Below are positions 34,069 to 51,587 of a DNA stretch of 64,000 bases, piece after piece. The stretch spans positions 1-64,000 of the forward strand of contig CANMVY010000005.1 of the NCBI GenBank assembly GCA_947501265.1, written 5' to 3'. Position numbers and translations under genes: made by a program. Below the pieces are notes generated by a model. It saw only the letters and a list, made by a program, of their open reading frames with translations. It was not told where the DNA came from and searched no databases. The number at the start of each line of letters is the position of its first letter. The first letter of the stretch is position 1. This stretch comes from Bacteroidota bacterium (GTDB taxonomy: Bacteria; Bacteroidota; Bacteroidia; UBA7662; CANHCV01).

Positions 34069-34101
34069 CTTTATCCCGACGAATGTCGGGGCGCCCTCCA
34101 A
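34069..34101 (+). repeat. REP-like 33-bp repeat, copy 2
   Basis: The unit begins CTTTATCCCGACGAATGTCG. Its core is a perfect hairpin CCCGAC-GAAT-GTCGGG (34075-34090), followed by GGCGCCC. Copy 1 has a weaker version of the same stem. Confidence 0.6.
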
Positions 34102-34130
34102 CCTACCACAAAATTATCAATCTATTTGAT

Positions 34131-34175
34131 TTTATCCGTTTGTAAACGTTTATAAACGTTTCGTATACGGATAAA
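34131..34175. promoter_or_regulatory. 45-bp nested inverted repeat upstream of the DUF2851 gene
   Basis: Outer arms TTTATCCGT (34131-34139) and ACGGATAAA (34167-34175) are exact reverse complements. Between them lies an 18-bp perfect palindrome (34144-34161) made of two AAACGTTT units spaced 10 bp apart, one helical turn. The element ends 27 bp before the DUF2851 ATG. The layout is that of a two-dimer operator; a replication- or chromosome-organisation site is another possibility. Confidence 0.55.
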
Positions 34176-34202
34176 TGAATTGACCCGCTTGAAATTTGTG
34201 CC

Positions 34203-35495
34203 ATGAAATTTCCAGAGGCGTTTCTTCAGTGGGTTTGGTTGCATCAGGTTTTTAACTCGGACGATTTAAAAACCACCGATGGCCGTGCAATTCGTGTAGA
34301 ACGTCCGGGGGAATGGAATCGCGGATTTGGACCTGATTTTTCGGGTGCCAGGGTATGGATTGGAAACCAATTGGCCCTTGGTGCTGTTGAGATTCATGTT
34401 CGGAGTGCGGAATGGTTTGAGCATGGACATGAGAGAGATGCGGCATATAATTCAGTGATTTTGCATGTGATCGATGATGACCAAGGGCTTGTGGTTTGTG
34501 AAGATGGATTGGTTCCGCCCCAATTGGTTCTTCGAGATCGGGTATTGCCGCAAGCGTGGAATGTATGGACGCATTGGATGAGAAATCCAGATCACTTGTC
34601 GTGCAGGAACCATTTAGGTCGGTTGAGCAACCCCCAAAAGGAGGAAGGCTGGATGGAATTGAGGCGTTGGCAAATGAAGGAACGGGTTGATTTGGTTTTC
34701 CAGGGGGTTGCGAAACGACAAGGGAATTGGGAACAAGCCTTTTTGGCGCGGTTGTTTTCGGCCTGGGGGTTTCATCATCATTCCGAACCGTTTGCCGAAA
34801 TTTTTCAAGCGATTCCCATGGCTCTGATTCCCCGATTGCAAGGAAACTCCTTGGCCATGGAAGCTTTGTTGCTGGGTTTGGGTCGGTTTCTCGACGATCC
34901 TCAAGATGAATACTCCAAGTCGTTGCGGGCAATGTTTTTGCACTTGCAAATTGCATTTCAGCTCCGAAAAATATCGCCCTATCCTTGGAAAAACACCCGA
35001 TTGCGGCCTTCAAACTTTCCTGAATTTCGACTCGCTCAACTGGCCGCAATTCTCAACCAATCGCCTTCTCTCTTTGGGTCGGTTTTGGGTGCAAATAACG
35101 AAAAAGAGTGCCTAACTCTTTTATCGGCATCACCACCAGATTATTGGAGCAAACACTACCGATTGGGAAAAGAAACCGGTGAACATTCGCCTACTTTGGG
35201 CGAAAAAAGCAAACAAATCCTGCTGGCGAATGTGTTTGTGCCCTTCCGTTTTGCTTATTTTGAACGCGTTGGGCATGAGTTCGAGAAGAACGGAACATGG
35301 AAGTGGTTGGAACGACTTCCTGCCGAAGAAAACGCTGTAACCAAGGTGTTTCAATCTACACCGTTGAAAGCAAAAAACCTGGGAGAAAGTCAAACTCAGG
35401 TGTACTTGTACCAGAACTTTTGCAGGCTCAAACGCTGTTTTGAGTGCTCATTCGGTTCCCAAATTTTACAATTTCCTCCGATCTTTGAACCATGA
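34203..35495 (+). CDS. DUF2851 family protein
   Basis: This 430-aa cytoplasmic protein matches DUF2851 along its length. The N-terminus has EAFLQWVWLHQVFN, the conserved core RPGEWNRGFGPDFSGARVWIG, GAVEIHVRSAEW and the HGHERDAAYNSVILHVI block with histidine and aspartate residues that suggest metal or nucleic-acid chemistry. The C-terminal part is helical and ends with a cysteine-bearing YQNFCRLKRCFECSFG. The function of the family is unknown; the acidic/His core is reminiscent of nucleases, but that is only an inference. It overlaps the next gene by ATGA and is preceded by the nested palindrome. Confidence 0.88.
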   Translation: MKFPEAFLQWVWLHQVFNSDDLKTTDGRAIRVERPGEWNRGFGPDFSGARVWIGNQLALGAVEIHVRSAEWFEHGHERDAAYNSVILHVIDDDQGLVVCEDGLVPPQLVLRDRVLPQAWNVWTHWMRNPDHLSCRNHLGRLSNPQKEEGWMELRRWQMKERVDLVFQGVAKRQGNWEQAFLARLFSAWGFHHHSEPFAEIFQAIPMALIPRLQGNSLAMEALLLGLGRFLDDPQDEYSKSLRAMFLHLQIAFQLRKISPYPWKNTRLRPSNFPEFRLAQLAAILNQSPSLFGSVLGANNEKECLTLLSASPPDYWSKHYRLGKETGEHSPTLGEKSKQILLANVFVPFRFAYFERVGHEFEKNGTWKWLERLPAEENAVTKVFQSTPLKAKNLGESQTQVYLYQNFCRLKRCFECSFGSQILQFPPIFEP

Positions 35496-36382
35496 AAATA
35501 CTCGTTACTGGAAGCAATGGATTGTTGGGCCAAAAGTTATCGGCTCTTTTGATGGAAAAAGGAATTTCGTTCCTCGCAACAGGGGTGGGAGAAAACCGAA
35601 ATCCGTCCCTACCGTCGGAGCATTACCGTACCATGGACGTTACCTCTGCATCTTCGATGGAATCTGTTTTTCAAGAATTTCAACCTACCCATGTGATTCA
35701 TGGCGCAGCCATGACCAACGTGGATGCCTGCGAAACCGATCGGGAGGGATGTTGGTCCTTGAACGTAACCGCCACCGAACTCTTGGTGGAAAGGTGTTCT
35801 GCCCAAAACATTCACCTCACCCATGTGAGCACCGATTTTATTTTCGATGGGAAGAATGGGCCTTACCGGGAAGAGGATCAGCCCAATCCTTTGAGTTTTT
35901 ACGGAGAGAGCAAGTTGAAAGCCGAGGAAGTGGTGAAAGCTGGAACCCTGCCTCATGCCATTTTAAGAACGGTTTTGGTGTACGGAATAACTCCGCACAT
36001 GTCGCGTTCCAACATCGTTTTGTGGGCCAAAGGAGCTTTGGAAAAAGGGCAAAGCATTTCGGTGGTGAACGACCAATTCCGCACTCCTACTTTGGCCGAA
36101 GACTTGGCCATGGGTTGTTTTTTGGCAGCCACAAAAAACGCTCAAGGGGTTTTCAATATCAGCGGAAAGGATTTTATGAGCATTTTTCAATTGGTTGAAC
36201 GGGTCGCCAAGTATTTCCATCTTTCAACGGAAAACGTGGTTCAAGTTTCCAGTTCTACCTTGAATCAAGCGGCTCAACGGCCGCCCATTACCGGATTTAT
36301 TCTGGACAAAGCAGCGGCCGAATTGGGTTATGCACCGCACTCGTTCGAAGAGGGAATTGCAGTCATGGAAAAACAGTGGTAA
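35492..36382 (+). CDS. RmlD-type SDR (dTDP-4-dehydrorhamnose reductase-like)
   Basis: The 296-aa extended short-chain dehydrogenase opens with the NAD(P)-binding motif ILVTGSNGLLGQKLSALL. It carries the RmlD-like HGAAMTNVDACE, VSTDFIFDGKNGPYREED and the catalytic YGESKLKAE. In sugar-nucleotide pathways such enzymes reduce dTDP-4-dehydrorhamnose; many Bacteroidota homologues stand alone with unknown substrate. Here no other rml genes are adjacent, so the specific activity is uncertain. Coupled to the DUF2851 gene by a 4-nt overlap. Confidence 0.82.
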   Translation: MKILVTGSNGLLGQKLSALLMEKGISFLATGVGENRNPSLPSEHYRTMDVTSASSMESVFQEFQPTHVIHGAAMTNVDACETDREGCWSLNVTATELLVERCSAQNIHLTHVSTDFIFDGKNGPYREEDQPNPLSFYGESKLKAEEVVKAGTLPHAILRTVLVYGITPHMSRSNIVLWAKGALEKGQSISVVNDQFRTPTLAEDLAMGCFLAATKNAQGVFNISGKDFMSIFQLVERVAKYFHLSTENVVQVSSSTLNQAAQRPPITGFILDKAAAELGYAPHSFEEGIAVMEKQW

Positions 36383-36396
36383 CCTAAAAAGATGGG

Positions 36397-37275
36397 ATGA
36401 GTCGATCAAAAGGAATTTGGTTGGGGAAGTCGGAACGAAGGGGAATGATGGCCGTTGGTGTAACCTTTATGGCGTTGTGTGCACTTCGATTTTTACCGAA
36501 ATCCGAACAAGGATTGGAGCCGATGCAAGAACCCCAGAAAACCGTTCCATATTCGTCTCGGGTTCAAGACTACAAAACCGGGATGGAACGGTATCCGCAT
36601 AAAAATAGGTTTTCGACCATTTCATTGCGGCCATTTCCGTTCAACCCCAATACCATTTCGTCCGATTCTCTTCTGCAAATGGGGTTGCCAAAACCGGTGG
36701 TTGAGAAATGGATCAAAGCCCGAAGCCGAGGATTCATTTTTAGAAAGCCCGAAGATTTGCAACGGTTTTCGATCTTGCCTCCATCGTTTCGGGCGCAACT
36801 TTTGCCACACGTTGTTCTTCAAAATTCCACAGAGCGAATTCGGCAAAAGTGGCAAGCCCCGCCTCGACCGGTGGTGATGGTTGAAATCAATGAGGCCGAC
36901 AGTTTCGAGTTGCAAGGATTGCCGGGAATTGGTCCCGCCCTAGCGCACCGATTGGTTAATTACCGAAACCGTTTGGGCGGTTTTTATCATCCCCAACAAT
37001 TGCTGGAAGTATTTGGAATTGATTCTACCCTCCTTCAGAAAATTCTTCCACAAATTCACATCGACCCTCAAAAAATTCAGACTCGATCGTGGAATACCAT
37101 TTCGGCAGAAGAGTTAAAATTGTTTCCATACCTCACAAACAAAGAGGCCAACATCATCGTTCAATACCGAAAAGTACATGGGCCTTTTACTTCGATGGAT
37201 GCCGTGAGAAAAATCAAAGGAATTCGATCAGATATTCCCGAAAAATTAACACCTTACCTCCATTTCGAATTATGA
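36397..37275 (+). CDS. Membrane-anchored helix-hairpin-helix protein (ComEA-related)
   Basis: This 292-aa protein has one N-terminal membrane helix (about residues 18-34), a polar linker and then several helix-hairpin-helix units. The clearest is EINEADSFELQGLPGIGPALAHRLVNYRN near residue 168, with a last one at the C-terminus (DAVRKIKGIRSDIPEKL). HhH units bind DNA backbone; ComEA uses them for DNA uptake. Annotations in this phylum are usually just helix-hairpin-helix domain-containing protein. A DNA-uptake or envelope-DNA role is an inference. Confidence 0.82.
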   Translation: MSRSKGIWLGKSERRGMMAVGVTFMALCALRFLPKSEQGLEPMQEPQKTVPYSSRVQDYKTGMERYPHKNRFSTISLRPFPFNPNTISSDSLLQMGLPKPVVEKWIKARSRGFIFRKPEDLQRFSILPPSFRAQLLPHVVLQNSTERIRQKWQAPPRPVVMVEINEADSFELQGLPGIGPALAHRLVNYRNRLGGFYHPQQLLEVFGIDSTLLQKILPQIHIDPQKIQTRSWNTISAEELKLFPYLTNKEANIIVQYRKVHGPFTSMDAVRKIKGIRSDIPEKLTPYLHFEL

Positions 37276-48489: not shown

Positions 48490-48632
48490 GGCCAAATAAC
48501 TCTGGAGCAGTCAAAATCATTTTTTAGCTGAAGGCACCGTCCTTTTTAGGCAGAAATCCTGTCCGTTATTTTTGTAAAAACAAATTCGCTATTTCATTTT
48601 TAATGAATGATTTTTAAACGTTAAAACGTGTT

Positions 48633-51349: not shown

Positions 51350-51498
51350 GGTAAAAAAATTGAATCCTCCCTATTCACGTTAGGAAATACAACCCATTCA
51401 TCGGGAATTTTCACTAAATTTTTCATCACCAACGGTTCAAGATCGCACCCTTCAATTTCTCCTTCCAAAATTGGAAACGATTGAAACGGCTCTATCCC
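51337..51498 (-). pseudogene. Possible C-terminal gene remnant
   Basis: A 53-codon minus-strand reading frame ends at TAG (51337-51339) and has natural protein character: FPILEGEIEGCDLEPLVMK and then IPDEWVVFPNVNREDSIFLP. It has no start codon at its 5' side; an in-frame TAA at 51499-51501 closes it, and REP-like repeats begin just beyond. It looks like the tail of a gene whose 5' part was lost. I cannot name the family. Confidence 0.35.
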
Positions 51499-51587
51499 TT
51501 AACTTTACTTCTGGGGAGGGGTGGGACTTTGTCCCCGGTTTCTTTTAGTCTGATTGAAGGCCGGTTCCCGATGCGGGGTCTCGATAC

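Follow-up and report, generated by a model that had tools for sequence, protein, structure and literature searches.

A conserved array of phased CG-centred boxes in front of a DUF2851 gene, a probable activator site of a competence-type regulon in Bacteroidia

What kind of control site is the 45-base element (TTTATCCGTTTGTAAACGTTTATAAACGTTTCGTATACGGATAAA, 34131..34175, no strand assigned) found in front of a DUF2851 gene in the window, i.e. the whole stretch of 64,000 nucleotides analysed here, and which genes depend on it? The initial annotation had described 9-bp perfect arms enclosing an 18-bp perfect palindrome, placed 27 nt before the DUF2851 ATG (34203), beside REP-like repeats and with no regulator gene adjacent; re-reading of the sequence agreed on every one of these points. 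The palindrome, AAACGTTTATAAACGTTT, occupies positions 34144-34161. Its symmetry and that of the arms are half a base out of register (arm and core are separated by 4 nt on the left side and by 5 nt on the other), which reflects the true structure of the site, a series of CG-centred boxes, with CG at 34137, 34147, 34157 and 34168, spaced by 10, 10 and 11. The two inner boxes are AAACGTTT, 10 bp apart (34144..34161, no strand assigned), and are presumed to bind a regulator, given the genome-wide copies and the phasing of homologous arrays at ssb described below; the outer boxes finish in TTATCCG and CGGATAA.

The site had also been called improbable by chance. This does not apply to the palindrome alone, and we rejected that argument: the window should contain about 0.6 perfect palindromes of 18 bp when its sequence is modelled as a first-order Markov chain. 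It does apply to the paired arms, reproduced in 0 of 100 shuffles, and to the genome-wide copies. Since a lone palindrome is expected that often, it is the copies that carry the case. In the own genome, CGTTTATAAACG is present in 37 exact copies, distributed over about 31 places, and the reversed control is absent; the 19-base core with up to 3 mismatches gave 126 matches (both strands counted) against 2. Copies are therefore far above the controls and do not form a random scatter. With the 18-base core and up to 2 mismatches, 54 matches were scored in the own genome, and 25 and 30 in its two relatives within the genus; both are metagenome-assembled and carry the name “Bacteroidetes bacterium”, and one comes from a pond. 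None of the remaining 57 of 60 relatives exceeded 4. Two contig ends of the own genome (C3:245 and C4:6) carry arrays that are nearly identical and adjoin repeated sequence, which suggests that these repeats broke the assembly there.

Upstream of the DUF2851 orthologues, the element is kept within the genus: all 45 bases are identical in G002, and one or two differ in G001. The stretch from operator to ATG is nearly identical in G000, G001 and G002, whereas the DNA just upstream differs, and in G001 the gene upstream of the element is not the one found in the own genome. That the element was kept while its upstream DNA changed supports the explanation favoured below. Both checks proposed in the initial annotation, for conservation at orthologues and for non-random placement, came out in favour of the site.

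The copies have a constant layout, in which AAACGTTT boxes about 10 bp apart are followed by an arm of the ACGGATA type, 16-17 nt, and a -7 box TAnnTTTG as known from Bacteroidota. On 39 of the 97 sides with a recognisable arm (ACG[GA][ACG]TA type; repeated elements are included, so that sides are not independent), the -7 box matched TAnnTTTG at 5 of 6 positions or better, compared to about 7% of shuffled tails, and on 38 of these 39 sides arm and box were 16 or 17 nt apart. A further third of the sides scored 4/6, many of them with TAAATTGC. The strict pattern of box, arm and -7 box was matched 19, 8 and 8 times in the three genomes of the genus, and 0 times in every control. The arm sits at the position of the housekeeping -33 element (TTG/TTTG), where some G002 copies carry TTGACA instead.

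At the DUF2851 gene, the arm ACGGATA (34167..34173, plus strand) takes the -35 position, 17 nt before the -7 box GAAATTTG (34191..34198, plus strand), with a predicted transcription start at 34203. The promoter pattern was also matched on the minus strand, by an arm ACGGATA in -35 position (34133..34139) and a -7 box TAATTTTG (34109..34116). The element is the control region common to two predicted divergent promoters: the inverted repeat that had been read as nested consists of a back-to-back promoter pair with the central boxes in common, and the outer arms fall where each promoter needs its -35 region. The proposal of two dimers on one side of the DNA holds in that this is a regulatory site with its binding units on one helix face; the site is not specific for DUF2851, which appears to be one member of a regulon for competence and single-stranded DNA handling. 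The weaker half-site pair that had been pointed out upstream of the FISUMP gene could be confirmed (AAACGTTAAAACG, 48616-48628). Its geometry is not that of the promoters, and it was rejected as a regulon member.

Promoters differ in quality. The -7 box matches TAnnTTTG at 6/6 positions for pepF, dprA, radC and a recombinase gene, 5/6 for DUF2851 and 4/6 for comEC; comEC and radC have a poorer fit to the arm or the -7 consensus. With the -7 box placed at -12 to -5 (PMC9723704), DUF2851 transcription would start on the ATG. The gap between -7 box and ATG is exactly 4 nt for DUF2851, comEC, comF, radC and pepF, and these genes are therefore predicted to be leaderless, a class which makes up 5.5% of mRNAs in Flavobacterium psychrophilum (PMC9723704). 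This layout is not special to the regulon, because other long frames of the window also have a TAnnTTTG box at this distance from their ATG.

Gene-facing copies were found upstream of comEC (PF03772), comM/yifB, radC, ssb, an M3 peptidase gene and a tyrosine recombinase gene, and the ssb copy of the own genome is common to a divergent nth. A weaker form of the site precedes comF, also in G001, and another precedes dprA, with its box series displaced by one 10-bp unit. The copies at DUF2851, comEC, comM, radC, comF and the recombinase gene are shared with one or both of the other species in the genus. One kind of site is therefore present upstream of core genes of DNA uptake and processing, namely comEC, comF, dprA (shifted), comM, radC and ssb, as well as the apparent operon that DUF2851 heads and that includes a comEA-like gene. 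Gene names outside the family scans given here rest on seed similarity or on reading of the translation. Hallmark competence genes sit behind the sites; we infer from the sequences that the regulon probably serves competence and that a single regulator probably acts on all of the sites.

Three further arrangements around these copies were noted. At radC, in all three species, the array precedes a hairpin resembling the rpsT terminator, which occupies the interval up to the radC -7 box (L049 1545-1604; L099; L109). A hicA-hicB-like pair is apparently enclosed by two copies of a segment made up of the array and the tyrosine recombinase gene's 5′ end (L054 1492-2335; L103; L115); it looks inserted with a duplication, both of the other species likewise have paired arrays, and a Pfam scan gave no match for the HicB-like frame. 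Finally, a conserved array with a -7 box is directed, in all three species, into the 3′ end of an oppositely oriented gene (L045 1470-1530; L094; L112), possibly producing an antisense transcript.

A survey of 395 genomes with a 22-base array pattern (up to 2 mismatches) extended these arrays to the class Bacteroidia. Families f5, f35 and f39 contain array-enriched genomes; elsewhere, strong arrays occurred singly. An ssb start lay within 350 bp downstream of the array in 27 of the 70 loci inspected (27 genomes, 13 families besides the own one), a fraction biased overall by the choice of loci, as 40 were taken by hand, mainly in array-rich genomes; among the 30 picked automatically, the count was 16. 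The site precedes ssb in 14 bacterial families, the own one included. comEC was found downstream of an array in three genomes of family f5, with PF03772 confirmed for two, and a comEA-like gene in one genome, where it immediately follows an rmlD-type gene, the order seen in the window. At ssb, array and -7 box are separated by 31-32, 42, 52-53 and 61-62 nt, i.e. whole helical turns. Phasing was strong over 17 less redundant loci (R 0.97, p ∼10−7, a value to be taken as indicative, since the best-scoring -7 box per leader was used and L186, L191, L192, L215 and L238 were dropped by eye as ambiguous). The SSBs driven by arrays are small (107-119 aa in most cases), and an acidic tail is missing from 26 of the 28; the two others may come from a second ssb in the same locus. 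We presume that these short tailless proteins resemble the competence SSB of Firmicutes.

Sites, fixed geometry, helical phasing, conservation and downstream genes were all established by computation. The explanation that we favour, and consider probable, is an array of activator sites through which a competence-type regulon is controlled by one operator, the ssb arrays found elsewhere in the class being part of the same system. A putative regulator would bind cooperatively to the phased AAACGTTT boxes, all on one side of the helix, and bring RNA polymerase carrying the housekeeping sigma factor to promoters having a TAnnTTTG -7 box and an ACGGATA arm in place of the usual -33 element; contact of the activator with the polymerase would compensate for the missing element. 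This would switch on comEC, comF, comM, radC, ssb, dprA and the DUF2851-rmlD-comEA-like operon, and the same kind of array would control ssb across Bacteroidia and comEC in one other family. Activation rather than repression is our deduction from the fixed distance, the helical phase and the position upstream of the -35 site; phased boxes so placed suggest an activator, and a repressor would be compatible with them as well.

A nearly identical set of genes (rec2/comEC, comF, comM, dprA, radC and ssb) forms the CRP-S/Sxy regulon of Haemophilus and Avibacterium, which is likewise controlled by an activator site upstream of the promoter (PMC10269479). CRP-S is a single 22-bp site, TTTTGCGATC..GATCGCAAAA (PMC10269479), whereas two to four phased AAACGTTT boxes are present here, and the TGCGA-N6-TCGCA operator was not found in our sites. 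The best reading is a regulon functionally like Haemophilus CRP-S, behind an unrelated operator. Tandem arrays are known from MetJ-type repressors, which bind cooperatively to 8-bp palindromes centred on CG (AGACGTCT boxes). The boxes described here are also CG-centred, but they follow a pitch of 10 bp rather than 8, which sets them apart from MetJ arrays, and their position suits activation. Within the phylum, ComEC, DprA, ComF, a helix-hairpin-helix protein and YifB were identified in Riemerella anatipestifer by a transposon screen as needed or important for transformation; we found no description of a regulatory site in that report (PMC8459023). Several of these machinery genes stand behind the arrays. 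In the open-licence literature, we found no description of a regulator or regulatory site of natural transformation in Bacteroidota, and nothing relevant on the box sequence or on a Bacteroidetes competence regulator.

As ssb, radC and nth would also suit a response to DNA damage, the boxes might be the operator of an SOS-like repressor whose inactivation frees repair genes. The non-canonical LexA of Bacteroidetes belongs to the same phylum, has a palindromic operator, and counts ssb and radC among its reported targets (PMC8565304). It is a repressor acting on repair and error-prone polymerase genes, not on comEC, comF or dprA, and its described operators, GGA-N5-TCC and CTAA-N5-TTAG, are absent from the 45-bp site (PMC8565304), so that identity with a LexA operator was rejected on motif mismatch. 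Neither comEC, comF and dprA nor the comEA-like gene are SOS genes, and the boxes lie upstream of the -35 region, not over the start site. We regard this explanation as unlikely.

The position of the arm, exactly at the -35 place and 16-17 nt from the -7 box, raises the question of whether arm and -7 box form the promoter of an alternative sigma factor, with the phased boxes as an accessory upstream element. Some sides (e.g. L050, L053, L055 and L056) do carry TAAATTGC, which fits SM5, a promoter motif of F. psychrophilum with the sequence TAnnTTGY (PMC9723704), and these sides may use another sigma factor. Most -7 boxes are nevertheless ordinary TAnnTTTG, and boxes and arm form one phased series whose phase holds even where the arm differs in sequence, which makes this second alternative quite improbable. 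Least credible of all is that the element is only a dispersed, REPIN-like repeat whose copies before genes are insertion accidents: many copies do lie between inverted REP-like hairpins in gene-free gaps and one transposase gene of the REP-associated Y1_Tnp type is present, but gene-facing copies keep the exact promoter geometry, those at the six genes named above are shared within the genus, related arrays are found at ssb in 13 other families, and no REP of these types stands beside the transposase gene.

In the genus, and separately in family f5, many arrays lie between divergent promoters of the same geometry, and transcripts from these promoters would begin with REP-like hairpins, often reaching no gene. 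REP-flanked arrays with intact promoter geometry were found in the own genome (L041, L050, L055-L057, L060, L061 and L064), and others in family f5 (L203, L207, L209, L212, L213, L223 and L225); leader types include TAAATTTGACTTGGGTAGGGGGC.., TAACTTTACTTCCGGGGAGG.. and TAACTTTGCTTCGGAGGGTGGC... The REPIN layout, two inverted REP hairpins around a short spacer, matches many copies. The site at 34131 has a hairpin on its left only, with the gene on its right: this hairpin, GCCCCGACATTCGTCGGG (34075..34092, minus strand), is near the predicted start of the divergent transcript and is of a leader type shared with G002 and G001 arrays. Another element of the window, called C-type (51475..51510, plus strand), consists of shifted boxes AAACGATTGAAACGGCT and a -7-like TAACTTTA, then a REP-like hairpin. 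An Rfam scan of the REP-flanked elements at ten loci gave no match other than a tRNA. The REP-facing arrays may correspond to small RNAs, mobile elements or decoys.

The DUF2851 gene (PF11013; 34203..35495, plus strand) is followed on the same strand by an rmlD-like gene of the dTDP-4-dehydrorhamnose reductase type, its family assigned by reading the sequence (35492..36382), and by a ComEA-like helix-hairpin-helix gene (HHH_3; 36397..37275). Because the first two overlap by 4 nt and the third begins 14 nt past rmlD, they likely form an operon headed by the 34131 site. The idea that control logic could hint at the role of DUF2851 was borne out as far as its context is concerned. In an alignment, GPDF, ExH and HxH motifs and Cys134 were invariant, and three C-terminal cysteines nearly so; these residues suggest a metal-dependent enzyme, perhaps of nuclease type and with a cysteine cluster. 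Sequence searches against solved structures returned nothing significant, and a structure model built from three sequences was useless (mean pLDDT 34). DUF2851 as a general member of competence loci was rejected: elsewhere, it is commonly found between pyrF and a PspC/ktrA/rmlD cluster.

Regarding the regulator, in 15 loci (including L121 1572-1934, L192 and L235) a conserved gene for a small zinc-ribbon protein of about 120 aa lies on the other side of the shared array, divergent from ssb. The protein has four invariant cysteines and a basic KNRxIL segment, and is weakly similar, below cut-off, to the treble clef DUF2116. A divergent neighbour sharing an operator is a common place for a regulator gene, and this gene is a candidate for that role; it may equally be a target of the array. 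No copy was seen in the inspected stretches of the window genome, and a search for the protein in viral contigs gave nothing. Rather doubtful, though worth stating, is a broader proposal, that an undescribed activator, possibly encoded by the zinc-ribbon gene, would run single-stranded DNA handling and competence through phased arrays in the whole class, its promoters having joined REP-like hairpins in two families. If true, this attachment would provide a competence-linked set of hairpin transcripts.

The arrays put DUF2851, a family with almost no literature in our open-licence search, at the head of an apparent comEA-like operon, under what would be competence-type control, a placement which holds for this genus. 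With a recognisable operator, the regulon can be listed in any genome of the class and the regulator could be found by pull-down. The operator would also help predict which uncultured species take up DNA.
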